NCBI RefSeq assembly: GCF_001202025.1
Contig: NZ_LGHS01000014.1
Location: 1-64,000 of the forward strand
DNA: 64,000 nt
Direction of reading: 5' to 3'
Source: Pseudorhodobacter aquimaris
GTDB lineage: Bacteria; Pseudomonadota; Alphaproteobacteria; Rhodobacterales; Rhodobacteraceae
Each line of letters begins with the position of its first letter. The first letter of the stretch is position 1. Positions 23,208 to 34,473 of this stretch are shown piece by piece. The notes under the pieces are model-generated. The model was not told where the DNA came from, made no database searches, and worked only from the letters and a program-made list of their open reading frames with translations. Position numbers and translations under genes: made by a program.

Positions 23208-23624
23208 CTATTTGATCCGGTCAGCCAGCGCTTTTCTAATATCTGCACTGGCCTGCAAGGCACCCAGCACGGTAATCGATCCGATCGTCTGCAAGGCCAG
23301 ATTCGGCGTCACATCGCTGGCGATACGTGCCAAGCCCACGACCTTGACATGCAGCACCTCACCCGCGTCACGCAGCGCTTCCAGATCCGCTTTGGAATAG
23401 TCGCGCAGGCCCAGCTCCATCGTGTGGCGTTCCAACGTGGTGCGCACCGTATCGACATGGCTGTCCAGTTGGTTGCGGATCGCGGTGCGGATGAAGTCAC
23501 TCCGGTTTGAGTAGAACCCCTCCTGCACCAGCAGATCGATCCGGCCCAGATCAACGAAGCCAAGATTGATTGTGATCTTTTCATTCTCGGGCTGCTTCTC
23601 GCGCAGCTGTTTGACGTTGCTCAC
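23208..23624 (-). CDS. Ribbon-helix-helix (CopG-like) transcriptional regulator
   Basis: 138 residues. Residues about 15-60 match an RHH DNA-binding fold: ENEKITINLGFVDLGRIDLL as the beta-strand/helix A region, then NRSDFIRTAIRNQLDSHVD as helix B. The C-terminal half (ADLEALRDAGEVLHVKVVGL) ends in an amphipathic helix, probably for oligomerisation or ligand sensing. It is the first gene of the operon with the esterase and C45 hydrolase. Tandem repeats directly upstream (23641-23671) look like its own operator, implying autoregulation. Confidence 0.75.
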   Translation of the reverse strand: MSNVKQLREKQPENEKITINLGFVDLGRIDLLVQEGFYSNRSDFIRTAIRNQLDSHVDTVRTTLERHTMELGLRDYSKADLEALRDAGEVLHVKVVGLARIASDVTPNLALQTIGSITVLGALQASADIRKALADRIK

Positions 23625-23640
23625 ATCGATTCTCCATCTG

Positions 23641-23671
23641 TATGGATGTTATATGGATGTAAAATGAATCA
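23641..23671 (-). promoter_or_regulatory. Tandem 11-bp-spaced operator repeats before the RHH gene
   Basis: TATGGATGT occurs at 23641-23649 and 23652-23660. A third, degenerate copy (AATGAATCA) falls at 23663-23671, keeping an 11-bp period. Repeats on one face of the helix, 17 bp upstream of the RHH start codon, are typical of cooperative RHH operators. Confidence 0.55.
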
Positions 23672-23787
23672 AGTTCAAGCCCTGGCACGGACAGCAAACA
23701 TAAATTGGCCGATCGCTTATGGCCTGCGCCGCACCCATCGCGGGTCACAGTATATTTATCAGGCCCCGCAGCCAACGCACGATTTCG

Positions 23788-23812
23788 GGAACCGCAGGCG
23801 GGTTGCCGCGTT
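23788..23812 (+). promoter_or_regulatory. EcfG-like promoter GGAAC-N16-CGTT
   Basis: GGAAC at 23788-23792 and CGTT at 23809-23812 are separated by 16 bp, which fits the general-stress ECF sigma consensus of alphaproteobacteria (GGAAC-N16/17-CGTT). The predicted start site is about 50 bp upstream of the small membrane protein at 23869. Confidence 0.55.
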
Positions 23813-23868
23813 GGTGCAACATGCTGGCAAAACGGTCGGCAAAGTTTTCAAACAAGAGAGGGTTTGCA

Positions 23869-23943
23869 ATGCACAGTGTCATTTATCTGGTCGGCTTGGT
23901 GGTTGTTGTTATGGCGGTTTTGTCGTTTGTCGGGCTTGCCTAA
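23869..23943 (+). CDS. 24-residue single-helix membrane protein
   Basis: A small ORF of 24 codons starting MHSVIYLVGLVVVV and ending LSFVGLA. Almost the whole peptide is one hydrophobic transmembrane helix with a single His near the N-terminus. A strong GAGAGGG ribosome-binding site lies 4 bp before the ATG, and the EcfG-like promoter lies 60 bp further upstream. The next gene encodes a larger membrane protein 25 bp downstream, so they are likely cotranscribed. The function is unknown. The ribosome-binding site and context, not homology, support it. Confidence 0.6.
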   Translation: MHSVIYLVGLVVVVMAVLSFVGLA

Positions 23944-23968
23944 GCCATTTTCCAGAAAGGAAAAACCT

Positions 23969-24814
23969 ATGGAATATGCGAAAAAAACCGTTTCGGTTGT
24001 GGACTCTGATCTGCGCCATGTCGATTGGCCTGCGATCTTAGCTGGCGCCTTTCTGGCGACAGCTTTGACAATCGTTTTGATGTCATTCGGTGCGGCCTTT
24101 GGCTTGTCGATGGCAAGCCCTTTGTCCGGTGATGGCGTCTCGCTGCGCTGGATCACGATTGCCGGCGGTATCTGGATGATCTGGACCGCGGTCAGCAGCT
24201 TTGCTGCGGGCGGCTACTTGACCGGCCGTCTGCGCCGTCGTCTGGGTGACGCCAATGCGGATGAGATTGAGGCACGTGACGGCGCACATGGCGTTGTCGT
24301 TTGGGCTGTAGGTGCTATTTTCGGCGCTTTTCTCGCGATCAGTGGCATAACCGGCACCTTGTCGGCGGTTGGCAGCGGTGCAGCTTCGGCGCTTGAGGCG
24401 GCGGATACGCAGCTGGCTGAGGCGACATCCTACACCAGCGCGGAGCTTTTGCGCGGCGATGCGACCCAAGGGTCAGCCGAGGCAAAATCCGAAGTTGCCG
24501 CTATTCTTGCCAAGGGCATTGCAGCGGGCGAGGTTTCCGACGCTGACCGGCAATATCTGACCAATGTCGTGGTCGCTGAAACGCAGCTGGATCCGGCAAC
24601 TGCCGAAACCCGCGTCGATACGGCAATCAATGACGGTCTGGTCGCGCGCGCCAAAACGATTGAGGCGGTTGATCAAACCCGTATTGCAGGCATGATCGCC
24701 GCATTTGCCCTTGCTGCGACGATGCTTGTCAGCGCCGCAGCGGCCTATTTCGCGGCCGTTACCGGCGGCGCGCACCGTGATGCAAACCGCGGCTTTCGCA
24801 GCTACGGCCGCTAA
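23969..24814 (+). CDS. Multi-pass membrane protein of the stress island
   Basis: 281 residues from MEYAKKTVSVVDSDLRHVDW, preceded by GAAAGGA. Hydrophobic helices are visible near residues 20-42, 57-78, 108-132 and at the C-terminus (about 245-268). A roughly 100-residue soluble, alanine- and acid-rich segment lies between helices 3 and 4 (TQLAEATSYTSAELL, ILAKGIAAGEVSDADRQYL). The WPAILAGAFLATALTIVLMS start recalls the YrzE/TIGR04086-like family of alphaproteobacterial membrane proteins. No enzymatic motif is seen. It is flanked by two tiny membrane proteins, which suggests a small membrane complex. Confidence 0.65.
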   Translation: MEYAKKTVSVVDSDLRHVDWPAILAGAFLATALTIVLMSFGAAFGLSMASPLSGDGVSLRWITIAGGIWMIWTAVSSFAAGGYLTGRLRRRLGDANADEIEARDGAHGVVVWAVGAIFGAFLAISGITGTLSAVGSGAASALEAADTQLAEATSYTSAELLRGDATQGSAEAKSEVAAILAKGIAAGEVSDADRQYLTNVVVAETQLDPATAETRVDTAINDGLVARAKTIEAVDQTRIAGMIAAFALAATMLVSAAAAYFAAVTGGAHRDANRGFRSYGR

Positions 24815-24837
24815 TTCCAACACTCAAGGAGATTGCT

Positions 24838-24909
24838 ATGCCTGTTATCATCGCTTGGCTACTCGGCGCGCCATTATCGGTTTTGCTGATCATCCTGTTA
24901 CTCACCTAG
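24838..24909 (+). CDS. 23-residue hydrophobic membrane peptide
   Basis: 23 codons, beginning MPVIIAWLLGAPLSVLL and ending ILLLT. An AAGGAG Shine-Dalgarno lies 7 bp upstream of the ATG, and a strong terminator follows 7 bp after the stop, so the frame is neatly bounded. The peptide is one hydrophobic helix with a central Gly-Ala-Pro kink. Similar short peptides with a WLLG-x-PLS core are common but unassigned in Rhodobacteraceae. It is probably the last gene of the EcfG-type operon that starts near 23818. Confidence 0.65.
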   Translation: MPVIIAWLLGAPLSVLLIILLLT

Positions 24910-24915
24910 ACCGGC

Positions 24916-24946
24916 AAAAGCCCCCAGTGATCAACTGGGGGCTTTT
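24916..24946 (+). terminator. Strong intrinsic terminator
   Basis: AAAAGCCCCCAGT (24916-24928), loop GATCA, then the perfect complement ACTGGGGGCTTTT (24934-24946). The 13-bp stem carries A-tract and T-tract on its two sides, so it can act on transcripts from both strands. It closes the small-membrane-protein operon. Confidence 0.92.
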
Positions 24947-25004
24947 GTGATTGGGCCGCACCTTTGGGCCGTTGTTTTTCCTGACCGCCCGGCTTTGCGC
25001 AGGG

Positions 25005-25301
25005 TTAGTGGTGATGTTCTGGCAGCTTTTCCACAGCATCGCGCGCAAGGTCGGTTACGGCATGAACCGTACCAGCCTCATCGCGCATCACATCCAGCTG
25101 CGCCAAGCGAAGGGCAACCGGCCTTGTGCCGATGCCAAGAAAGCCGCCAACATCAATCACCGCACACATGTCAGGCCCTGTGCCATGCAGATGCGATATC
25201 GTGCCGACGGTGTTATCGCTGCGGTCGTAAACCACAGCACCTTCAAGATTTTCACTGTTCAATTCGCCAGGTTCTAGACGCGGGTGAAAAGAATGATCCA
25301 T
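25005..25301 (-). CDS. PRC-barrel domain protein
   Basis: 98 residues: LNSENLEGAVVYDRSDNTVG at residues 13-32 followed by short strands (TISHLHGTGPDMCAVIDVGG) and PVALRLAQLDVMRDE, matching a single PRC beta-barrel (PF05239). No signal peptide is present, and the C-terminus is KLPEHHH. PRC barrels in bacteria are small adaptor domains; stand-alone versions are frequent in stress regulons. It has a perfect AGGAGGT ribosome-binding site and its own EcfG-like promoter 33-57 bp upstream, so it is probably a monocistronic stress gene. Confidence 0.78.
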   Translation of the reverse strand: MDHSFHPRLEPGELNSENLEGAVVYDRSDNTVGTISHLHGTGPDMCAVIDVGGFLGIGTRPVALRLAQLDVMRDEAGTVHAVTDLARDAVEKLPEHHH

Positions 25302-25333
25302 TTTTTACCTCCTGTATTTGGCTACTCCAGTTA

Positions 25334-25358
25334 AACGCGGCGGCCGCAAAAAGGTTCC
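25334..25358 (-). promoter_or_regulatory. EcfG-like promoter GGAAC-N16-CGTT of the PRC-barrel gene
   Basis: On the minus strand GGAAC (25354-25358) and CGTT (25334-25337) are separated by 16 bp. The predicted transcript would start near 25328, 27 bp before the ATG at 25301, leaving room for the AGGAGGT ribosome-binding site. Confidence 0.6.
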
Positions 25359-25385
25359 TGCAGGGGGCGCGGGATCGCCCTTGGA

Positions 25386-26765
25386 TCACACGGGCAAAAC
25401 TGTATCGCTCGCATCACAAATTTCGCGCAATGCCGGTTTCAGCCCCTCTTCAAGGGTGGGATGGTAGAACGGCATCCCAAGTAAACCGCGCGCGGTTTCT
25501 TCGCGTTTGATCGCAAGTATCAACAGATGTGCAAGATGGTCTGCACCCGGTGCAAACATCTGCGCCCCAATCAGGCGGCCGCCGGATTTGGTGGCGAATA
25601 GCCGGACCAACCCTTGCGCCTTCGCCTCTACCTTGGCGCGACCTTGGTCTGAATAATCGGCGCAACCGGAAATGCTTTGGGCATTGGTGACCTCGCCCAG
25701 ACTGACAAGCGGCGGATCGGTGAAGGTCAGGCTAAAGGCAGGATGACGGGTGAACATGGCCACGTCTGGAAAACGGGCTGCATTTTGCCCGGCGATAGAG
25801 CCTTCGTGCAGGGCCTCATGCAGCAATGGAACATCGCCATTCGCATCGCCCGCAATGAAAATCGGCGCGTCGCCGCATTGAAGCGTGGCGCAGTCAAAAA
25901 CCGGACCGCCGTGGCTATCCAATTCCAGATTAGTCTGCTGAAGGTCAAGGTTGGCAAGGCACGGCGGGCGGCCGGTCGCTATCAGGACCTTGTCAAACAG
26001 CTTGCTTCCCTCACTTGCACCAGACCAGCTTATCTTGACCTGAGCGCCTTGCCGTTCCGCCACGATGTCGACCCCAAGATGAACGGTGGCGTCACGCGTC
26101 AGCACGTCGAGCAGATTTTTCTGAATATCGGCATCGTCAACACCGCCCAAGACCTCATCGCGGTCAAAAAGTACGGTTTCCACGCCAAGCCGCGCCATGG
26201 CCTGCGTCATCTCAAGCCCGATTGGACCGCCACCGACGACGGCAAGCGATTTGGGTAAATCCTTCATCTCAAACACTGTTCTGTTGGTCAACAGGACATC
26301 GCCCAAGCCCTCAAAGGGCTTGGGGATAGCGGGAAAAGAGCCTGTCGCGATGACGATAGCTTTTGCCTCAACCTCATCACCGTTGTCCAAACTCAGTGTA
26401 TTTGGTCCGATGAAACGCGCTTTGGCCTTGATGCAGACACCATCCGGCAGCTCTGATATTCCGGTAAGAGTAGAGCTTACAAAGGCATCACGCTCAGCCC
26501 GCAATCGCTGCATCACGGCGGGTCCATCGACGGTGACTTTTTCGGTCTTTATACCAAAAACCTGCGCCTTGCGGGCAGAATGTGCCGCGGTGGCCGCAGC
26601 GATCAAAAGCTTGGACGGCATACAGCCGACCGTGGCGCAAACCGTCCCCGCAAATTTCTCATCGATCAAAAGGGTTTTTGCACCCGCGGCCCGCGCCGAC
26701 CGTTCGGCGACTAGCCCCGCAGTTCCGGCACCAATGATCGCTACATCACACTTATGTCGGGACAT
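25386..26765 (-). CDS. Dihydrolipoamide-dehydrogenase-like flavoprotein disulfide reductase
   Basis: 459 residues. FAD-binding CDVAIIGAGTAGLVAERSAR starts at residue 6. The redox-active disulfide lies in GTVCATVGCMPSK (Cys-x4-Cys near residue 43), NAD-binding in SLAVVGGGPIGLEM near residue 172, a second FAD block in APIFIAGDANGDVPLLHEA near residue 300, and the dimerisation domain ends with FYHPTLEEGLKPAL. The usual GGTCLNVGCIPSK and HAHPTxSE sequences are altered but the key Cys and His remain. No 2-oxoacid dehydrogenase genes are nearby, so it may reduce another disulfide or quinone under stress. It is likely the last gene of the unit starting at 27763. Confidence 0.78.
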   Translation of the reverse strand: MSRHKCDVAIIGAGTAGLVAERSARAAGAKTLLIDEKFAGTVCATVGCMPSKLLIAAATAAHSARKAQVFGIKTEKVTVDGPAVMQRLRAERDAFVSSTLTGISELPDGVCIKAKARFIGPNTLSLDNGDEVEAKAIVIATGSFPAIPKPFEGLGDVLLTNRTVFEMKDLPKSLAVVGGGPIGLEMTQAMARLGVETVLFDRDEVLGGVDDADIQKNLLDVLTRDATVHLGVDIVAERQGAQVKISWSGASEGSKLFDKVLIATGRPPCLANLDLQQTNLELDSHGGPVFDCATLQCGDAPIFIAGDANGDVPLLHEALHEGSIAGQNAARFPDVAMFTRHPAFSLTFTDPPLVSLGEVTNAQSISGCADYSDQGRAKVEAKAQGLVRLFATKSGGRLIGAQMFAPGADHLAHLLILAIKREETARGLLGMPFYHPTLEEGLKPALREICDASDTVLPV

Positions 26766-26813
26766 ATTTCCTCCTACAGGATGCGGACCTTACATAACCG
26801 CGCGACATCCCGT

Positions 26814-27092
26814 TTAGATGCGCCTGCGCGGTTCGCCGTCTACGTCGACCTCTGCATCCGGGGTCGGGTCGGGGCGGTTACGCTTTTCATCCCAATCGGG
26901 ATCCTGGCGTTTGATCCGGGCGGAAATGCCCTTGGCCATAGGCAAGCCAACGACAAAACCCAGACCAACGGCCACCAAAAACGGCATCCAGCCAATGTAG
27001 CCCATCGACATGAACAAAATGATGATCGCACCCGAAACCACAGTCCAGGTCATCATCGCGACGAAAAGGCTTAATCTGTCCATCGGTCTCAT
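26814..27092 (-). CDS. Small two-helix membrane protein
   Basis: 92 residues with two adjacent hydrophobic helices (LSLFVAMMTWTVVSGAIIIL and GWMPFLVAVGLGFVVGLPMA) and a charged cytosolic tail rich in Arg, Asp and Pro (RIKRQDPDWDEKRN, then DPTPDAEVDVDGEPRRR). It lies 12 bp after the host-attachment-family gene and 48 bp before the flavoprotein gene, all on the minus strand, so it is inside the operon. I do not recognise a functional family. Confidence 0.65.
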   Translation of the reverse strand: MRPMDRLSLFVAMMTWTVVSGAIIILFMSMGYIGWMPFLVAVGLGFVVGLPMAKGISARIKRQDPDWDEKRNRPDPTPDAEVDVDGEPRRRI

Positions 27093-27104
27093 CCTTTCAT
27101 GTTT

Positions 27105-27563
27105 TTATGCGGCATCACCCAAGGCCGCTGCGACCTGCTTTTCAATCTGGTCCATCGGCTGGTTGGTGAGCTGCTTTGGCACCTCTGCCAGAATTTTATC
27201 GGTAACGACCGAATGCAATTCAGACCGCAGCACACCCAGAACCTGAGGGGCCGCGATAATAACCAGTTGGTCAAAACGGCCCGCATGGGCCCGGCTGTAC
27301 AAAAGATCGGCAAGGTCAGCAGCAAACCGTTCCTTTGCCAGATCATGCCAATCGGTATCATCAAAGGCGGACACATTCGGGCTGGCGCTGCCAAACACCC
27401 GGCCGGGACGATTTGCGCCCTGTTCGCGCGTGGGGGGATTGTCTTGCTCATCCTTGCGGACAACGCGCAGGTTGAGATGGGCGTCATCCCCATCATTCAC
27501 CAAAAACAGCGCCTTTTCGCCATCGGCGATAAGCACCCAGCCACCATTCTTAAGTTTGGTCAT
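27105..27563 (-). CDS. Host-attachment-family protein (PF10116)
   Basis: 152 residues: GGWVLIADGEKALFLVNDGD near residue 6, an asparagine/arginine linker (NPPTREQGANRPGRVFGSAS), then WHDLAKERFAADLADLLYS and the C-terminal LVIIAAPQVLGVLRSELHS. This matches the Host_attach family first described as plant-attachment proteins, whose fold resembles the eRF1/Baeyer-type domain and whose biochemical role is unknown. They occur in alphaproteobacterial stress clusters. ATG 27563 overlaps the stop of the upstream 66-codon gene (TGATG), which implies coupled translation. Confidence 0.8.
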   Translation of the reverse strand: MTKLKNGGWVLIADGEKALFLVNDGDDAHLNLRVVRKDEQDNPPTREQGANRPGRVFGSASPNVSAFDDTDWHDLAKERFAADLADLLYSRAHAGRFDQLVIIAAPQVLGVLRSELHSVVTDKILAEVPKQLTNQPMDQIEKQVAAALGDAA

Positions 27564-27763
27564 CACGCGCCCCCTTCATTATCTTCGTCGGATTTGGTGA
27601 CGCGTGTAGCGCCAGCAGGGCGTTCGGTGGCGCGCTTCAACTCATCCTTGGTTCCGATGTCGCGGGCCAAACGCCCGCCTTCGCGGCCACCTTGCGAAAT
27701 GGTCCCTTCAGCACCAAAAGCTTCTTTTGATGTGTCGGGCTTGTCTGTTTTTTCGCGGGTCAT
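27563..27763 (-). CDS. Small hydrophilic stress-island protein
   Basis: 66 residues, highly charged, with no hydrophobic core: MTREKTDKPDTSKEAFGAEG, then TISQGGREGGRLARDIGTKD and KRATERPAGATRVTKSDED. The composition suggests an intrinsically disordered protein. A strong AAGGAGG ribosome-binding site precedes the ATG and an EcfG-like promoter lies 35-60 bp upstream. It heads the operon with the host-attachment protein, a membrane protein and the flavoprotein. Similar short Gly/Arg/Asp-rich proteins exist in stress regulons, but I do not recognise a named family. Confidence 0.65.
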   Translation of the reverse strand: MTREKTDKPDTSKEAFGAEGTISQGGREGGRLARDIGTKDELKRATERPAGATRVTKSDEDNEGGA

Positions 27764-27797
27764 GCTATGCCTCCTTTTTTGCTGTCACTACAGGTGA

Positions 27798-27823
27798 AAC
27801 GCGCCCAACGGCTGTGGAGTTCC
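27798..27823 (-). promoter_or_regulatory. EcfG-like promoter GGAAC-N17-CGTT of the four-gene operon
   Basis: On the minus strand GGAAC (27819-27823) and CGTT (27798-27801) are 17 bp apart. The predicted start site near 27792 lies about 29 bp upstream of the first ATG (27763). Confidence 0.6.
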
Positions 27824-27848
27824 CAAAAACACAGGTTTTGCGGGCGGG

Positions 27849-28013
27849 CTAAGGCTTTTGCGGCACTTCAACAGGCGGTAGGTCCGGCGCCTCAACAGGC
27901 GGGTCAACGGGGCGTTCGGGTGGGGTCTCGGCGGGTAAATCAGGGGCGGGTTGATCTGGCACCTCGATCGGTGCGTCGGGTTGGTTAGGCTCGGGTGTCG
28001 GGCGGATTGGCAT
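27849..28013 (-). CDS. 54-residue proline-rich peptide
   Basis: A short ORF starting MPIRPTPEPNQPDAPIEV and ending LPPVEVPQKP. Roughly a third of its residues are proline, alternating with Asp, Glu and Val in P-(D/E)-x-P units (PDQPAPDLP, PVDPPVEAPDLP). Such a chain would be extended, as in spacer or TonB-like linker segments, but there is no membrane anchor. A perfect AGGAGG ribosome-binding site is positioned 6 bp before the ATG, the best evidence that it is translated. It lies between the OYE gene and the EcfG-type operon. The function is unknown. Confidence 0.5.
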   Translation of the reverse strand: MPIRPTPEPNQPDAPIEVPDQPAPDLPAETPPERPVDPPVEAPDLPPVEVPQKP

Positions 28014-28057
28014 GTTTGCCTCCTATTGAATGTCAGGGGCGACTGGGCCCCGGGAAT

Positions 28058-28079
28058 GACCCGCCATATGTGGCGGGTC
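28058..28079 (-). terminator. Perfect 9-bp stem-loop after the OYE gene
   Basis: GACCCGCCA (28058-28066), loop TATG, TGGCGGGTC (28071-28079), 6 bp beyond the OYE stop. There is no T-run on either side, so it may be a weak or Rho-assisted terminator or an mRNA-stabilising hairpin rather than a classical intrinsic terminator. Confidence 0.4.
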
Positions 28080-28085
28080 GCGGGC

Positions 28086-29189
28086 TTAATTCACCGGACG
28101 AATCCCGTCCAGGAACGGATAATCCGTATAGCCATGCTCATCCCCGCCATAGAATGTTTGCTGATCGGGTTGCGTGAGGGCAGCACCGCGGCGGAAACGC
28201 TCTGGCAGGTCGGGGTTGGCGATAAACGCCCTGCCGAATGTCACGGCATCCGCTGTTCCATCGGCAATCGCCTTGGCGGCACTTTCGGCATCATAGCCGC
28301 CATTCGCGATGTAGAATCCGGAATATTCCTTGCGCAGCCGGTTAAGCAGCGCCTTGCCATCGCTGTCACCTTCGCTGCCCGGAAAGGATTCCACCACATG
28401 CAGATAGGCAAGGTTGTGGTCCCCAAGTGCTTGGTAAACGGCGCGGAACAGGGTTTCGGGGTCGCTGTCGGAAATGTCATTGGCCTGCCCCAATGGCGAC
28501 AAGCGCACGCCGACACGGCTGCTGGGCCAAACCAGCTTCACGGCATCCAGTACCTCAAACAACAGGCGCATGCGGTTTTTAACCGATCCACCATAATCAT
28601 CGCTGCGGTTGTTCACGCCGTCTTGCAAAAACTGGTCAATCAGATAGCCGTTGGCGGCGTGAACCTCGACCCCATCGAAATTCGCCACCTTTGCCCATTC
28701 AGCCGCGGCGCGGAAATCCTGTACCGTCCGCGCAATACCCTTGGCATCCAAGGCCACCGGGGTTGAGCAATCCTCAAACCCGTTGGCGGTAAAGGTTTGC
28801 GTCTTTGCCCTCCGGTCAGAAGAGGATACAGGCGACGCACCATCAGGCAACAAAGAGTTGTGGCTGATCCGGCCCACGTGCCAAAGCTGGCAGAAAATAC
28901 GCCCCCCATTCGCGTGAACGGCATCGGTGATTTTGCGCCATGCCCTTGTCTGGTCTTCGGTATAAATGCCGGGCGTGTCGAGATATCCCTTGCCCATATC
29001 CGAGATCTGGGTCGCCTCGGACACGATCAAACCGGCCGATGCGCGCTGCGCGTAATAGGTCTGTGCCATATCCTTTGGCACCCCGTCCGGTTGTGCCCGA
29101 TTACGCGTCAAGGGGGCCATCAGCACACGGTTTGGCAGGCTGAGGATTCCCATTTGCGCGGGATTGAAAAGAATTTTCGTGTCGGTCAT
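28086..29189 (-). CDS. Old-yellow-enzyme family NADH:flavin oxidoreductase (alkene reductase)
   Basis: 367 residues: FNPAQMGILSLPNRVLMAPL at the N-terminus (FMN site), GRIFCQLWHVGRISH near residue 94, the substrate-binding pair in FDGVEVHAANGYLIDQFLQD near residue 175 (His-x-x-Asn), RSDDYGGSVKNR near residue 198 and GTADAVTFGRAFIANPDLP near residue 318. This is the NemA-type subgroup that reduces alpha,beta-unsaturated carbonyls and N-ethylmaleimide. Role: detoxification of electrophiles. An EcfG-like promoter lies 32-56 bp upstream of the ATG, consistent with stress induction. Start 29189 fits the RBS AGGAGC. Confidence 0.88.
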   Translation of the reverse strand: MTDTKILFNPAQMGILSLPNRVLMAPLTRNRAQPDGVPKDMAQTYYAQRASAGLIVSEATQISDMGKGYLDTPGIYTEDQTRAWRKITDAVHANGGRIFCQLWHVGRISHNSLLPDGASPVSSSDRRAKTQTFTANGFEDCSTPVALDAKGIARTVQDFRAAAEWAKVANFDGVEVHAANGYLIDQFLQDGVNNRSDDYGGSVKNRMRLLFEVLDAVKLVWPSSRVGVRLSPLGQANDISDSDPETLFRAVYQALGDHNLAYLHVVESFPGSEGDSDGKALLNRLRKEYSGFYIANGGYDAESAAKAIADGTADAVTFGRAFIANPDLPERFRRGAALTQPDQQTFYGGDEHGYTDYPFLDGIRPVN

Positions 29190-29220
29190 AAAATGCTCCT
29201 GTTTGGCGGGCTCGTGAACC

Positions 29221-29245
29221 AACCAACACAGCCGCTTAAAGTTCC
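29221..29245 (-). promoter_or_regulatory. EcfG-like promoter GGAAC-N16-GGTT of the OYE gene
   Basis: On the minus strand GGAAC (29241-29245) and GGTT (29221-29224) are 16 bp apart. The -10 element differs from the CGTT consensus at its first base. The predicted start site is near 29214, 25 bp before the ATG. Confidence 0.5.
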
Positions 29246-29322
29246 ACGCGAAATTCACACGGGCAAATGCGCGACGCCCGGGCTTTGGCAAAACAACCAG
29301 TCTGCGACCGTCGCCCTTTGGA

Positions 29323-29661
29323 TCAATCCGCCGGCATCCAGATCGCATAGCGGGGGTCGTTTTCCAAAAGCTGCAACCGTCGTTTCAGCGCGGCATTCTC
29401 ATCGGCCAGCGACAAGACCACCGCCACACCCGGAATGTTCAGCCGCAGGTCACGTTGCAGCCGCTGGACCTTGCGCACGATGGTGATGCTGGTGCTTTCA
29501 AAACGCCAGACGGTCCTTGTCGTGCCTTTGGGTTCCAGAATACCTTCTTCGACCAGTTCGATCAGCCAATCGGCATTTAATCCGCAAACCCTGCACAGAT
29601 CATTCAGGGTCAGGGGTTGCACAATCTCGGATGCGGGCACCAAGGCGTTATGTTCGGGCAT
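29323..29661 (-). CDS. cbpM: Chaperone modulator CbpM
   Basis: 112 residues of the MerR_2/CbpM type: TLNDLCRVCGLNADWLIELV near residue 18, EEGILEPKGTTRTVWRFEST, then a coiled helix IVRKVQRLQRDLRLNIPGVA and LADENAALKRRLQLLENDP. CbpM binds the J-domain of CbpA and inhibits its cochaperone activity. It starts 3 bp after the cbpA stop, the standard cbpA-cbpM arrangement, and both are on the minus strand. Confidence 0.85.
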   Translation of the reverse strand: MPEHNALVPASEIVQPLTLNDLCRVCGLNADWLIELVEEGILEPKGTTRTVWRFESTSITIVRKVQRLQRDLRLNIPGVAVVLSLADENAALKRRLQLLENDPRYAIWMPAD

Positions 29662-29664
29662 GTC

Positions 29665-30624
29665 CTATCCTCCCAGTCTTGCGCGAGGGTCGAAATCCAT
29701 CTCACGCGCCATTTGTTCATATAAGTCGCGGGCCTTTGCGCTTTCGGTGGGCGGGATGACGATTTTGACGACAGCATAAAGATCACCGGGGTGTTTGCCC
29801 GGAATACCGCGCCCCTTCAGCCGCAGCTTCTTGCCCGATTGCGCATGTTTGGGGATTGTCAGCTCTATCTCGCCGCTGGGGGTGGGCAGGCTGATCTTGG
29901 CACCCAAGGCCGCCTCCCATGGCGCGATCGGCAGATCCATAAAGACATCGCGGCCCTCGACACGGTGGGCTTTATCCTCAGCGATCACCACCTCAAGATA
30001 AAGGTCGCCCGCCCTGCCCTGCCCCATTCCGGCCCCGCCTTTGCCCGCAACGCGGATATGCTGGCCGGTGGTCACCCCCTTGGGGATGGTCACGCGGATC
30101 GAATGTTCGCGCAACACCACATGTCCCGAGGGGTCAAGTTCAGGCGCGCGCAGGGTAAAATCGCGTGATCCGCCCGCGTAGGCTTCGGCCAGCGAGATCA
30201 CGATTTTTGCGTGGCTGTCCTGCCCCGGCGCGCTAAACTGCCGGTCACCGCCCATATGCGGCGAAGGCTTGCCCCGGCGGGCGAACAGCTCATCAAAGAA
30301 AGAGCCGAAGCCATGCGGATCGCCCTCGGTATAACCACCGCCGGTAAATTCGAAACCCTCATCCCAATCGGGTGGCGGCTTGAAAGACTGCCCTTCCTTC
30401 CAATTCGCGCCAAGCTGGTCATAGGCCGCGCGTTTTTCAGGATCGTGCAGGACCTCATAGGCCTCACCCACATCCTTGAATTTCGCTTCGGCCGCCTCGG
30501 CATCGGGGCCTGTGTTCACATCAGGATGGTATTTGCGCACCAATTTGCGGTAGGCGCGCTTGATGTCCTCTTGTGGGGCGGTTCGATCCACGCCCAAAAT
30601 CTTGTAATAATCTTTGTATTCCAT
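29665..30624 (-). CDS. cbpA: CbpA-type DnaJ cochaperone
   Basis: 319 residues. The N-terminal J-domain is MEYKDYYKILGVDRTAPQED with the HPD motif in LVRKYHPDVNTG near residue 31. A Gly/Phe-rich linker (FTGGGYTEGDPHGFGSFF) follows without zinc-finger cysteines, then two C-terminal substrate-binding domains (SIRVTIPKGVTTGQHIRVAG, ELTIPKHAQSGKKLRLKGRG). Absence of the zinc finger separates it from DnaJ. It stimulates DnaK. The start at 30624 is fixed by the J-domain; the longer frame is non-homologous. Paired with cbpM. Confidence 0.9.
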   Translation of the reverse strand: MEYKDYYKILGVDRTAPQEDIKRAYRKLVRKYHPDVNTGPDAEAAEAKFKDVGEAYEVLHDPEKRAAYDQLGANWKEGQSFKPPPDWDEGFEFTGGGYTEGDPHGFGSFFDELFARRGKPSPHMGGDRQFSAPGQDSHAKIVISLAEAYAGGSRDFTLRAPELDPSGHVVLREHSIRVTIPKGVTTGQHIRVAGKGGAGMGQGRAGDLYLEVVIAEDKAHRVEGRDVFMDLPIAPWEAALGAKISLPTPSGEIELTIPKHAQSGKKLRLKGRGIPGKHPGDLYAVVKIVIPPTESAKARDLYEQMAREMDFDPRARLGG

Positions 30625-31029
30625 AGCTTTCTTGTCTCCACGCAACGCGGATTCCTGCCCAAAGGCCACGACCATCTGACGAACGTAGCACCAAAACAGT
30701 GTATTGTAATTAACCTGAATCATAGCGCCCGATTCGAAATATAGGCGCCATGACCACCTGTTGAGGTTTTCTGCGCATCCCCCACAATATCTTGCGGAAT
30801 TCTGCAAAATCTGCGAGTTTCCGTGGATAATCAATGGGCTATCGCCAAAATGTCGCTGATTCCCCTCACGCGCCAACTGCTCTTGCTGCCCAAGATGAAT
30901 AAAAAATATTGCCTGAGGCCAAGTTGCGTGTCATGAGTGCAGTTGTCGCGATCTTACGAAATTAACGCAATTTGGCGACGAAACATAATTGGCCCACTAA
31001 GAGGCCGCCTGGGCAGAGTGATTTTGGAC
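30625..31029. promoter_or_regulatory. Intergenic control region between cbpA and repA
   Basis: 405 bp without a credible gene. It carries a near-perfect palindrome TTGCGGAATTCTGCAA (30792-30807), a DnaA-box-like CGTGGATAA (30822-30830, TTATCCACG on the other strand) and several TCTGC repeats (30770, 30801, 30810). repABC operons are autorepressed by RepA/RepB at operators here, so the palindrome is a candidate operator. The promoter itself could not be fixed. Confidence 0.35.
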
Positions 31030-32220
31030 ATGAAAATGGAAGCAACCAGTTCCATCGCCGCATCGATTGCGTCAAACGCGGCCCGGCTATCAGAGGCGCT
31101 GAACACGCATATGCGCAACAGCTTTCAGCCCGACAGCCGGAAAACCCTGCGCAAGTTTCACCCAGCCGAGGTGTCCGAACTGACCGGCATCAGCATGTCC
31201 AACCTCAGAACCCGCCACCAAGAAGGCGATTTCCCTGATGTAGAGACGGATTCACGCGGGCGCAGGCTCTATACCGCCCAAGAGATTGACCAGATCCGGC
31301 ATGTGATGGCGAAAACCGGCCGCAACGGTCAAACCTATCTGCCCGGCCGCCGTGAAAACGACGCGCTTCAGGTGATTTCCATCGTGAACTTCAAGGGCGG
31401 GTCCAGCAAGACCACCACCGCGATCCATCTGGCCCAACGCTATGCCCTGCGCGGCTACAGGGTTCTGGCCATTGATATGGACCCGCAAGCGAGCCTAACC
31501 ACCATGTTCGGCTATCGCCCCGAGGTGGAATTTGCCGAAAGCGGGACCGTTTATGACGCCCTGAAATATGACGATCCCGCGCCCTTGAGCCAAGTGATCC
31601 GCAAAACCTATTTCCACAATCTCGATCTTGCACCTGCGGGGCTTTTACTCTCTGAATATGAGACCGAGACCGCCTATGCGTTGCAACACAAGGCCGATCC
31701 GCCCTTTACCCAACGTCTTGCCATCGCGCTGGATGAGGTCGAGGCCGATTACGATCTGGTCATCATAGATTGCCCGCCGCAACTTGGGTTTACGACGATG
31801 ACGGCGCTTCTGGCCTCTACCGGTTTGCTGATCACGGTCGTGCCTAGCATGTTGGATGTGGCCTCTATGGCGCAATTTCTTGAAATGGCTGGTGAAACTG
31901 TCCAGACCCTTGAGGAAGTCGCCGGGCCGATCGATTGGAACTTCCTTAAGTTTCTGATTGCTAGATATGAGCCGACAGATGTGCCGCAGTCGCAAATGGC
32001 CGGATTCTTGCGGTCCATCCTGTTGGATCAGGTTTTGACCACGCCGATGCTTAAATCCACCGCGATTTCGGACGCAGGCATGACGCAACAAACGATTTAT
32101 GAACTGGACCCCTCTCAGGTCGTCAAGAAAACACTGGTCCGCATCCTTGAAAGCGTGAACGGCGTCGCGGATGAGTTTGAGGCGACAATCCAGCAAGCTT
32201 GGGGAAGGGAGACTGACTGA
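31030..32220 (+). CDS. repA: Plasmid partitioning ATPase RepA (ParA family)
   Basis: 396 residues. The N-terminal helix-turn-helix part (RKFHPAEVSELTGISMSNLR, near residue 40) precedes a ParA-type ATPase with the deviant Walker A NFKGGSSKTTTAIHLAQ near residue 121, VLAIDMDPQASLTTMFG near residue 146 and LVIIDCPPQLGFTTM near residue 243. RepA drives plasmid segregation with RepB and represses the repABC promoter. The start at 31030 (MKMEATSS) is chosen over upstream in-frame codons because the family N-terminus begins here. The stop overlaps the repB start (TGATG), so expression is coupled. Confidence 0.93.
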   Translation: MKMEATSSIAASIASNAARLSEALNTHMRNSFQPDSRKTLRKFHPAEVSELTGISMSNLRTRHQEGDFPDVETDSRGRRLYTAQEIDQIRHVMAKTGRNGQTYLPGRRENDALQVISIVNFKGGSSKTTTAIHLAQRYALRGYRVLAIDMDPQASLTTMFGYRPEVEFAESGTVYDALKYDDPAPLSQVIRKTYFHNLDLAPAGLLLSEYETETAYALQHKADPPFTQRLAIALDEVEADYDLVIIDCPPQLGFTTMTALLASTGLLITVVPSMLDVASMAQFLEMAGETVQTLEEVAGPIDWNFLKFLIARYEPTDVPQSQMAGFLRSILLDQVLTTPMLKSTAISDAGMTQQTIYELDPSQVVKKTLVRILESVNGVADEFEATIQQAWGRETD

Positions 32221-33185
32221 TGGCGCGTAGAAACCTGTTTCAGCCCCCTCCCCCACCCGATGCCAGCAAGACCGCCCCCGCCACAGAGCAAAAGCAGCGG
32301 TTTCCCAATACCGGCGCGATGAGCGGCGTGAAATCCACCCTGAAGGATGTCGCAAGCAATGCGGTTCGGGAAATCTCGGTTGATGTCATTGAGGAAAACG
32401 GTCCCAAGGACCGACTTTCTTTTGGCGATGCCGATGTTGCGACACTGGCCCAGAGTATCAAGACCCATGGCCAGCAAGTGCCGATCATGGTGCGTGCGAT
32501 CGCGGACAAGCCGGGGCATTACCGGATCGTCTATGGCCGCCGCCGGTTGCGGGCCTTGCGGTTGCTCGGCATCCCGGCCAAGGCGCTTGTCAGAACGCTG
32601 TCGGATGAGGAGGCCATTCTTGCCCAAGGGCAGGAAAACACCCAGCGTCTTGATCCCAGCTTTATTGAAAAGGCGCTGTTTGCGACCGAGCTGACAACAA
32701 GCGGCTATGAGCAGGCGATCATCCTTGACGCGCTTGCGGTGGACAAACCCATGCTGTCGCGCATGACCAAGGTTGCCCGCTCCATCCCCAAAGCGGTGAT
32801 TGAGCTGATCGGCTCTGCCCATGGTATTGGCCGCCGACGTTGGGAGGAACTTGCCGACCAATCGCGCGACCACGGCTTTGATCTTGAACAGATCGCGGCC
32901 ACCCTGCCCTTTGACACCGCCCAAAGCACCGATGACCGCTTTGGTATGGTTGCCGATGCCGTGGCGCGGATGGTGAAGCCCAAACCCGCGGACAAAACAA
33001 CGCCCACCCTTTCGGTCAAGCTGGAGGATGGAACCCCCTTGGCCGAGGTAAAAGAAACCGCACGCGCCCTGACGGTCAAGCTGTCCAAGGCCCAGACCCC
33101 CGAATTTGCCCAGTGGATGCGCAACAACGCAGAAGCCGAGCTGAGGCGTCTTTATGAGGCGTGGCAGTCAGCGCAACAGCCCTGA
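32220..33185 (+). CDS. repB: Plasmid partitioning protein RepB (ParB family)
   Basis: 321 residues. The N-terminal ParB/Spo0J nuclease-like domain includes DVATLAQSIKTHGQQVPIMV near residue 72 and YRIVYGRRRLRALRLLG near residue 100. The central HTH region is around QENTQRLDPSFIEKALFATE and KPMLSRMTKVARSIPKAVIE near residues 139-200. The C-terminal part is for dimerisation. It binds the plasmid centromere (parS). Two copies of a perfect palindrome flanking repC are its likely targets. It follows repA with a 1-bp overlap and precedes the antisense RNA region. Confidence 0.93.
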   Translation: MARRNLFQPPPPPDASKTAPATEQKQRFPNTGAMSGVKSTLKDVASNAVREISVDVIEENGPKDRLSFGDADVATLAQSIKTHGQQVPIMVRAIADKPGHYRIVYGRRRLRALRLLGIPAKALVRTLSDEEAILAQGQENTQRLDPSFIEKALFATELTTSGYEQAIILDALAVDKPMLSRMTKVARSIPKAVIELIGSAHGIGRRRWEELADQSRDHGFDLEQIAATLPFDTAQSTDDRFGMVADAVARMVKPKPADKTTPTLSVKLEDGTPLAEVKETARALTVKLSKAQTPEFAQWMRNNAEAELRRLYEAWQSAQQP

Positions 33186-33235
33186 CCCGTATCACCCAGA
33201 GCAACACCATAACAAAAGGAGCACGACCAGCAGCC

Positions 33236-33291
33236 CAAAAAAGAAAGAGCCCCCCAAGGTAATCCCCGGAGAGCTCAATCTGTTCTTTGCA
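33236..33291 (-). ncRNA. repABC antisense counter-transcribed RNA (inc-alpha)
   Basis: In the repB-repC spacer the minus strand carries TTGACT (33320-33325), a 16-bp spacer and TAAATC (33298-33303), giving a start near 33291. The transcript would end in the stem GAGCTCTCC / GGGGGGCTC (33247-33276, two G-T pairs) followed by a T-rich run. The predicted RNA of about 55 nt matches the size and place of repABC ctRNAs that block repC expression and set copy number and incompatibility. Confidence 0.7.
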
Positions 33292-33328
33292 CTTTCAGAT
33301 TTACCAGCTTCTCTGCGCAAGTCAACAA

Positions 33329-33394
33329 CAACCGATTCGGTTGATTGTGTTTTGCTGCCTTTTTTCTGATTCCCAAGGGTTTCGGGCCCTTTTT
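33329..33394 (+). promoter_or_regulatory. repC leader hairpins (attenuator region)
   Basis: A perfect inverted repeat CAACCGATTCGGTTG lies at 33329-33343. A terminator-like hairpin AAGGG-loop-CCCTT followed by T residues lies at 33375-33394, just before repC. In repABC plasmids the ctRNA steers the leader between alternative folds that allow or stop repC expression, and these stems are the likely players. Confidence 0.45.
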
Positions 33395-33417
33395 ACATCA
33401 GGTTGTCGTGAAAAAAC

Positions 33418-34473
33418 ATGGCATTTACACAAGCAACTGCACCCGGCGGGCTGCGGAACAATGAGATATTGTCCGCGGACAACGCCCTTCCCGAACGCCA
33501 TATCGTCATTGCCACCCTGCGCAATGCCGCACCACGTCTTGGCCTTAGCCCGTCGGTGATCTCCACGCTGGATGCGATGTTGTCCTGCCTCGCCCCCAAG
33601 CGCAATCACCACACGGTCTTTGCCTCTAACGCCACGCTTACGTTTCGGCTGAACGGGGTTTCGGACAGAACCGTCAGGCGCCATGCCGCCGTTTTACAAG
33701 AAGCCGGGCTGTTGGTGCGTCACGACAGCCCGAACCGGAAACGTTTCACAAAACACAGCCGCCAGGACGGGATGGCGCTGCGCTTTGGCTTTGACCTCTC
33801 GCCACTTTTTGCGCGCTTACAGGAAATCGCCGCGCTGGCCGCCGAAGTTTTGCACGAACAAGAGCAGATCGATTACCTGCGCGCCAAGATCCGTGCCGCC
33901 GCTAATGCGCTGCTTATCGACAACCCCGACGATGAGATGGCACAGAACACCCTGCGCCTGCTGCGTCGAAAATTAGCGCTGAACGACTGCCAAGAGATCC
34001 TTGCAAAACTGGCCGACGTGCCGGTTCAGGCCGAAACTGCCGATGAACAACAACCCGTCATCACAACCAATATGACCGACAACGACGGCCAAATTGTCCG
34101 GCATCATCATAAGTCAAATAAAGAACTTATTGATAAAGAGAGTACACCGATTACGATTACAGAATTGCTGACCGCATGCCCGGAAGCAAATAAGTTCGCA
34201 TTGCATAGAATTGAAACAGCCCATGATGTTATCGGCCATGCCCGCACATTGGCGCCAATGATTGGCATTACCAATGAATCCTATGAGGCAGCGCATAGGC
34301 GACTTGGGCCACTCAGGGCTGCGGCGACGGTTTGGGCGATACTGCAGTTCCACAGCAAAATACGCAAGGTTGGAGCCTATTTCCGGGCAATTACAACAGG
34401 CGATAAAAGTGCAGCCTTCAGTCCTGAAGCTTTGGTGCGCCGTCTTGCCAATGCACAACTCCAGTTGGCTTGA
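33418..34473 (+). CDS. repC: Replication initiator RepC
   Basis: 351 residues matching RepC of repABC replicons: an N-terminal winged-helix region (RLGLSPSVISTLDAMLSCLA, LTFRLNGVSDRTVRRHAAVL, LVRHDSPNRKRFTKHSR near residues 35-120) and a C-terminal part (PLRAAATVWAILQFHSKIRK, VGAYFRAITTGDKSAAFSPE). RepC is the only protein essential for replication initiation and acts at an origin inside its own gene. An A+T-rich stretch at about 34105-34180 within the coding region is the likely origin. Expression is limited by the antisense RNA upstream. Confidence 0.92.
   Translation: MAFTQATAPGGLRNNEILSADNALPERHIVIATLRNAAPRLGLSPSVISTLDAMLSCLAPKRNHHTVFASNATLTFRLNGVSDRTVRRHAAVLQEAGLLVRHDSPNRKRFTKHSRQDGMALRFGFDLSPLFARLQEIAALAAEVLHEQEQIDYLRAKIRAAANALLIDNPDDEMAQNTLRLLRRKLALNDCQEILAKLADVPVQAETADEQQPVITTNMTDNDGQIVRHHHKSNKELIDKESTPITITELLTACPEANKFALHRIETAHDVIGHARTLAPMIGITNESYEAAHRRLGPLRAAATVWAILQFHSKIRKVGAYFRAITTGDKSAAFSPEALVRRLANAQLQLA
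33467..33482. repeat. Candidate parS palindrome, copy 1 (inside repC 5' end)
   Basis: TATTGTCCGCGGACAA contains the 14-bp perfect palindrome TTGTCCGCGGACAA at 33469-33482. The same 16-mer recurs after repC. Placement in the repC region and the perfect dyad fit a RepB-binding centromere site. Confidence 0.65.
34105..34180. other. A+T-rich stretch in repC, likely origin of replication
   Basis: This part of repC (coding HHHKSNKELIDKESTPITIT) is clearly richer in A and T than its surroundings. In studied repABC plasmids oriV lies in an A+T-rich segment within repC, so this is the best candidate. The assignment is by analogy. Confidence 0.45.

Follow-up and report, generated by a model that had tools for sequence, protein, structure and literature searches.

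In the Alphaproteobacteria the general stress response usually counts as core physiology. A 64,000-nucleotide (nt) stretch of Pseudorhodobacter aquimaris DNA (positions 1 to 64,000 of contig NZ_LGHS01000014.1; hereafter the window) contains an island of four small transcription units (TU1 to TU4), each headed by a site, or box, of the form GGAAC-N16/17-(C/G)GTT. Are these sites read by EcfG, the sigma factor of that response, and is the island a mobile part of its regulon? Very probably the four sites are indeed promoters read by EcfG in the alphaproteobacterial general stress response, as the initial annotation had proposed. Boxes lie upstream of genes (three of the CGTT type and one of the GGTT type), and phyR, nepR and ecfG are all present in the same genome, with boxes between phyR and nepR-ecfG. 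The island boxes are also conserved before the orthologous genes in congeners and track the presence of NepR across genera, with one exception (congener G005, see below).

The coordinates and strands of all four boxes are as first annotated (Table 1). Their -10 elements end 56, 32, 34 and 31 nt ahead of the first start codons of TU1 to TU4. The pattern has only these four matches in the window. Contig C14, of which the window forms the first 64 kb, is 113 kb long and has six sites in all, four of them being the island boxes. The 5.8-kb island (23600-29400) has 4 sites against 0.18 expected by chance from dinucleotide shuffles; none of 1000 shuffles of this region reached 4, and the maximum was 3. 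A scan for sigma-70 and terminator consensus sequences gave no excess over shuffles.

The genome comprises 3.82 Mb in 77 contigs. A search for ecfG, phyR and nepR found all three, so the genome does not lack an EcfG/PhyR homologue. They lie on contig C51, where phyR is divergent from nepR-ecfG; the products have PhyR_sigma2 and receiver domains, a NepR domain and sigma-70 domains of the extracytoplasmic function (ECF) type, respectively. The gap between phyR and nepR contains overlapping divergent boxes, GGAACCAAAC...GTTTGGTTCC, which are palindromic (L056 1391-1422, equivalent to G000:C51:33743-33774). The exact palindrome GGAACCAAACN8-12GTTTGGTTCC was found in six of 149 genomes of the family (one per genus; NepR-positive genomes include two with a match below the Pfam cut-off only). 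All six are NepR-positive and have the palindrome beside nepR; it is also present in several congeners, and the reversed control pattern had zero matches in the 149 genomes.

Scoring of the whole genome gave 49 exact GGAAC-N16/17-CGTT sites. Twenty-five are intergenic, whereas the 15.6% of those loci that is intergenic would predict about 7.6, and a gene start lies within 300 nt of 18 of these 25. Genes were called for the site analyses with a home-made caller based on codon usage; by the same caller the intergenic share elsewhere is 9.0% (C14) and 6.8% (C51). Counts of reversed patterns were uninformative, as the reversed forms are far commoner (49 vs 216; 58 vs 271), and were replaced by the intergenic share and by shuffles; we suppose that the excess of the reversed pattern stems from base composition. 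Judged by eye, proteins encoded downstream of sites in this genome are of the Dps, DUF1328, DUF883, entericidin, PLDc_N, MscS and AI-2E-transporter types, and in relatives with ecfG on a plasmid, annotated DUF1328, Dps, PLDc_N, AI-2E and DUF883 proteins lie close to it. The regulon extends over the genome, and the island is one of its clusters. A short sigma-like match recurs in L036-L049, mostly at contig ends of this genome; it is perhaps a repeated insertion-sequence gene which breaks the assembly.

The initial annotation held that the system is often thought to be absent from this family. This does not stand: NepR is found in 65 of the 149 genomes, 63 of them above the Pfam cut-off, and a phyR, nepR-like and ecfG locus is reported from R. 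sphaeroides (PMC5830050). PRC homologues occur in 47 genomes, of which 45 are NepR-positive (44/46 without P. aquimaris itself), and the eleven genomes with homologues of the TU1 membrane protein are all NepR-positive. Host_attach homologues are more widespread (70 genomes, 45 NepR-positive); at 150 bits or more, a cut picked after the list had been inspected, 33 of 34 genomes are NepR-positive. The boxes themselves were compared at 50 Host_attach loci including the island's own, namely the best 30 of 70 and a further 20 chosen by hand (12 NepR-negative, 8 NepR-positive). In the first set, a correctly oriented box is present within 500 nt upstream at 25 of 30 loci and a reversed one at 1 of 30, and the sole NepR-negative genome has none. 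In the second set it is present in 6 of 8 NepR-positive and 1 of 12 NepR-negative genomes. With P. aquimaris excluded, the combined counts are 30/36 for NepR-positive and 1/13 for NepR-negative genomes (p 2e-6). Such p values are indicative only, since related genera are not independent and the NepR-negative Host_attach homologues are less similar and lack the 66-residue gene; the comparison covers 13 of the 25 NepR-negative and 37 of the 45 NepR-positive Host_attach genomes. Box position before PRC genes was judged on six whole-length matches (at least 50% identity, P. aquimaris included), five of which have a box; many of the other matches are partial and lie in longer frames.

Several observations weigh against the EcfG reading. 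The nepR-facing -10 element in P. aquimaris is TGTT rather than CGTT, although the phyR-facing one is CGTT. Five of the 30 first-set Host_attach loci have no box, four of these being NepR-positive, and neither do two of the eight later NepR-positive loci. In three of the five boxed whole-length PRC loci the box is 102-154 nt away instead of 32-34 nt; among the other 24 PRC loci, which align in part and whose gene starts were not located, only one has a box in the 400 nt before the match. Only 4 of 9 other distinct membrane-protein loci have a box within 400 nt, and all of these cross-genus comparisons ignore phylogeny. Two further points would suit the view that GC-rich intergenic DNA has produced the boxes by chance. 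The excess in the window is weaker with a looser N15-18 pattern, which has nine matches against 3.3 expected (1 of 100 shuffles was as high), the five beyond the island boxes having spacers of 15 or 18; and the other 24 of the 49 exact genome sites are called coding and may well be accidental. However, a chance origin of the island boxes is barely credible in view of the shuffles of the island, the conserved box positions in two congeners and the dependence of boxes on NepR presence across genera. It was rejected as largely refuted on the shuffles and the Host_attach/NepR co-occurrence.

Island genes are present in three of nine Pseudorhodobacter genomes searched: P. aquimaris (G000), P. turbinis (G007) and the congener G005. 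Elsewhere there are partial or distant matches or none. The TU1 box is found in both G005 and P. turbinis, and the boxes of the PRC gene and of the operon which begins with the 66-residue and Host_attach genes are each found in G005 and before two P. turbinis copies. These congener boxes are 31-39 nt (TU2 to TU4) or 56-57 nt (TU1) from their genes, and their spacers are 34% identical, whereas the boxes are identical by construction. The TU4 box is the least typical. That it is not a promoter at all might be argued from its GGTT element, which deviates from CGTT, and from its position inside a longer OYE frame if the upstream start at 29258 given by the home-made caller is taken. The start at 29189 is the better choice, as the G005 and P. 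turbinis homologues align from there. Both retain the GGTT variant 31 nt before the gene, and EcfG-dependent genes of Sphingomonas melonis are reported to include GGTT-type sites (PMC6599016), which makes it unlikely that this site is inactive.

Congener G005 is the main difficulty. It is 99% complete (40 contigs) and keeps all four boxes, but has no detectable phyR, nepR or ecfG: there was no match to NepR or PhyR, and the only sigma factors matched are 28-30% identical to EcfG. It has a fifth box, ahead of a hemerythrin-like gene, and of its 54 exact sites 14 are intergenic outside the island, roughly double the 7 expected. This pattern fits a recent loss of EcfG, or an ecfG replicon that is absent from the assembly, at least as well as the acquisition of an island without its regulator. 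It could also be taken to mean that another ECF sigma factor reads the boxes, and ECF-type sigma factors 22-30% identical to EcfG do occur in all nine congeners. This is very improbable given that box presence tracks NepR across genera and that the same kind of box lies between phyR and nepR; recognition by EcfG is preferred. G005 offers a natural test of the fate of EcfG promoters in a genome without the sigma factor. Congener G004 also lacks phyR, nepR and ecfG, but it is 84% complete and has no island. The G005 flavoprotein gene carries an internal deletion (L245:1994-2401).

EcfG (ECF15) general stress systems also include S. meliloti RpoE2 and C. crescentus SigT. By analogy with the partner switch described in the literature, stress would lead phosphorylated PhyR to draw NepR off EcfG, and RNA polymerase with the freed EcfG would read the GGAAC-N16/17-(C/G)GTT boxes. 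Four small operons would then be switched on, with the putative products being a microprotein with a membrane protein, a PRC-barrel protein, a Host_attach/baeRF12 protein with a flavoprotein, and an OYE reductase. As in the systems of R. etli EcfG1 and S. melonis EcfG, phyR and nepR-ecfG are divergent with boxes between them, and there are GGAAC-N16/17-CGTT promoters and a PRC-barrel target. The sites of R. etli EcfG are reported as GGAAC-N16-CGTT (PMC3892343), and a PRC-barrel gene of S. melonis is described with a GGTT-type EcfG site 27 nt upstream (PMC6599016). Unlike in those systems, the target cluster and, by synteny, the regulator locus are here placed on extrachromosomal replicons, and the putative targets include a Host_attach/baeRF12 operon, an OYE gene and a 24-residue microprotein. 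The R. sphaeroides RSP_1274 locus has the same order (phyR opposite nepR-like and ecfG genes), but is chromosomal with a reported specialised role in membrane stress (PMC5830050). A plasmid-borne EcfG-type sigma factor is reported in R. etli (EcfG2); however, it is described as a non-canonical second copy, the canonical one being chromosomal (PMC3892343), whereas D. shibae has its only NepR match on a 153-kb replicon.

The first open reading frame (ORF) of TU1 encodes only 24 residues. Differences at codon positions 1/2/3 among 16 DNA versions from Rhodobacterales and Hyphomicrobiales are 969/249/1550 over 120 pairs, as expected of a translated sequence. Seventeen distinct proteins of this pattern were recognised at the loci analysed, and 14 of them are preceded by a box at no more than 250 nt (spacers of 15-18 accepted). 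At four of the five Hyphomicrobiales plasmid loci the ORF lies ahead of the membrane-protein gene; its box is 33-45 nt upstream at three of these and 201 nt upstream at the fourth, and the ORFs have no feature in the PLSDB tables, which are incomplete. In P. aquimaris the AI-2E-type gene is likewise preceded by a box and then by a related 22-residue ORF. A search of plasmids with the 24-residue query gave no matches, the low-complexity filter being a possible cause, and stretches of the sequence had no match in the open-licence literature. By these comparisons the ORF belongs to an unannotated family of predicted membrane microproteins (also at L375, L376, L377 and L379) which heads EcfG-promoter operons and is conserved across two orders. 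It is a specific, unannotated candidate for a role in the stress response.

The island very likely lies on an extrachromosomal replicon; its end is about 1.8 kb from repABC. The 1.58-Mb plasmid of P. turbinis (NZ_CP039965.1, 1,584,601 bp) covers 97% of window positions 34000-58000 at 91% identity, and 95% and 93% of the two halves of C51 at 88-89% identity. Both the regulator locus and one flank of the island are therefore collinear with this plasmid, and C51, with phyR-nepR-ecfG, is inferred to be extrachromosomal in P. aquimaris as well. The repABC region has no match on the P. turbinis plasmid, and island and regulator locus may sit on different replicons in this strain.

The same genes lie on different replicons in relatives. 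In G005 the operons are on a 78-kb contig beside another Rep, ParA and ParB set (identified by eye; ParA 26% identical to RepA of the window). In P. turbinis the island genes are split between C1 (2.56 Mb, with most of them) and the plasmid, and the Host_attach operon is present in two copies. Beside the plasmid copy only residues 319-361 of the OYE protein match (L061:2359-2487). No transposon, integron boundary, recombinase or transposase was recognised by eye in the ORF lists around the island, flanking repeats lying outside this inspection; near the G005 island a transposase-like fragment and a recombinase-like ORF were seen by eye. The initial annotation spoke of a mobile general-stress regulon. 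The differing replicons and arrangements in congeners, and a master locus on both plasmids and chromosomes, favour this, but no transfer unit was recognised. Mobility may be regarded as a fair hypothesis: replicon locations differ, and no transfer mechanism was found, conjugation genes in C14 lying outside the search.

The chances are about even that the boxes are EcfG promoters but that the island was simply passed down within the genus as part of its regulon, and was rearranged among the replicons without moving horizontally. The three genomes that carry the island belong to one genus, nothing was recognised as a transfer unit, and P. turbinis has most of the genes on its larger replicon. 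However, island genes were found in only three of nine congeners, although four of the six congeners without the island have NepR and are at least 98% complete, different replication modules adjoin the island in P. aquimaris and G005, and relatives of the membrane protein are found on plasmids of other orders.

PhyR was found in 35 plasmid records; 15 of these are from Rhodobacterales and represent 10 distinct replicons once the D. shibae and K. vulgare records are merged. At the annotated loci of nine of these replicons, phyR and ecfG face away from each other across a small gene, which in six cases is annotated as NepR. Their 24.8-kb neighbourhoods contain 44 exact boxes against 3.2 expected, and in seven of the nine a box lies between phyR and the small gene. 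Against this, the loci of R. litoralis (two boxes, both called coding) and S2214 (none) have no intergenic box. On a tree of PhyR and EcfG (37 rows chosen from 65 loci, 19 of them unlabelled; 'chromosome' denotes a contig of more than 2 Mb; two branches are long), 10 plasmid and 8 chromosomal copies are intermixed, with 6 label changes, at least 4 of them forced by starred branches, and the labels cluster no more than shuffled labels. In Rhodobacterales the control genes appear to have switched repeatedly between chromosomal and plasmid locations; the phyR-nepR-ecfG locus and its target clusters occupy plasmids or chromosomes in interleaved lineages. No report of a complete phyR-nepR-ecfG locus on Rhodobacterales plasmids was found among the titles and abstracts listed from the open-licence literature. 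The only NepR match of D. shibae (matched to G059) lies on C3, which has the length of pDSHI02 (152,970 bp). The genes of pDSHI02 include phyR-nepR-ecfG, dps, ggpS, katG and a cation/H+ antiporter operon (L331, L380), which gives a candidate explanation for the reported finding that the 153-kb chromid is essential under salt shock (PMC9426580).

The features of the island and its surroundings are collected in Table 1. The products first named (PRC, Host_attach, flavoprotein and OYE) are borne out by Pfam, the PRC match falling slightly under its cut-off. Between the island and repABC (29323-30876) are MerR_2-type (CbpM-like) and DnaJ-type genes without an exact EcfG box of their own. Two homologues of the membrane protein, L175 (G159:C8) and L176 (G050:C2), have an EcfG paralogue close by, and their CopG- and PHB-type neighbours are those also seen in the window.

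Table 1. Predicted promoters, genes and neighbouring replication module of the P. aquimaris island
Feature	Position	Strand	Remarks
EcfG-type promoter of TU1	23788..23812	+	GGAAC-N16-CGTT; box 56-57 nt before microprotein in G000, G005 and G007
EcfG-type promoter of TU2	25334..25358	-	GGAAC-N16-CGTT
EcfG-type promoter of TU3	27798..27823	-	GGAAC-N17-CGTT
EcfG-type promoter of TU4	29221..29245	-	GGTT variant; GGTT kept in G005 and G007
24-residue membrane microprotein, first ORF of TU1	23869..23943	+	24 codons; codon-position differences among versions
281-residue membrane protein	23969..24814	+	No Pfam or NCBIfam family
23-residue hydrophobic ORF, last of TU1	24838..24909	+	Conserved in G005, G007 and L178
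PRC-barrel protein (98 residues), TU2	25005..25301	-	Pfam PRC 20.4 bits, just below 21.2 cut-off
66-residue protein, first gene of TU3	27563..27763	-	ORF list and conserved loci
Host_attach / baeRF_family12 protein, TU3	27105..27566 (start 27566 or 27563)	-	Pfam
92-residue protein of TU3	26814..27092	-	ORF list
Dihydrolipoyl-dehydrogenase-like flavoprotein (459 residues), TU3	25386..26765	-	Pfam pyridine nucleotide-disulphide oxidoreductase
OYE-family reductase, TU4	28086..29189	-	Closest N-ethylmaleimide reductase model, below its cut-off
54-residue proline-rich ORF after OYE	27849..28013	-	ORF list; congener loci
repABC replication/partition module beside island	31018..34473	+	Matches named RepA, RepB and RepC

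A broader picture can be put forward tentatively, at somewhat less than an even chance: the stress response of Rhodobacterales may be modular and replicon-hopping. The switch, often with a kinase, and pre-wired target islands with EcfG promoters would travel on plasmids, sometimes apart. The response would then be gained or lost with a plasmid, or an island would be held without its switch, as in G005, and the 24-residue membrane protein at the head of TU1-type operons would be a stress-response component that has been overlooked. If switch and target islands are plasmid-borne in Rhodobacterales, loss of a plasmid could mean loss of stress tolerance.

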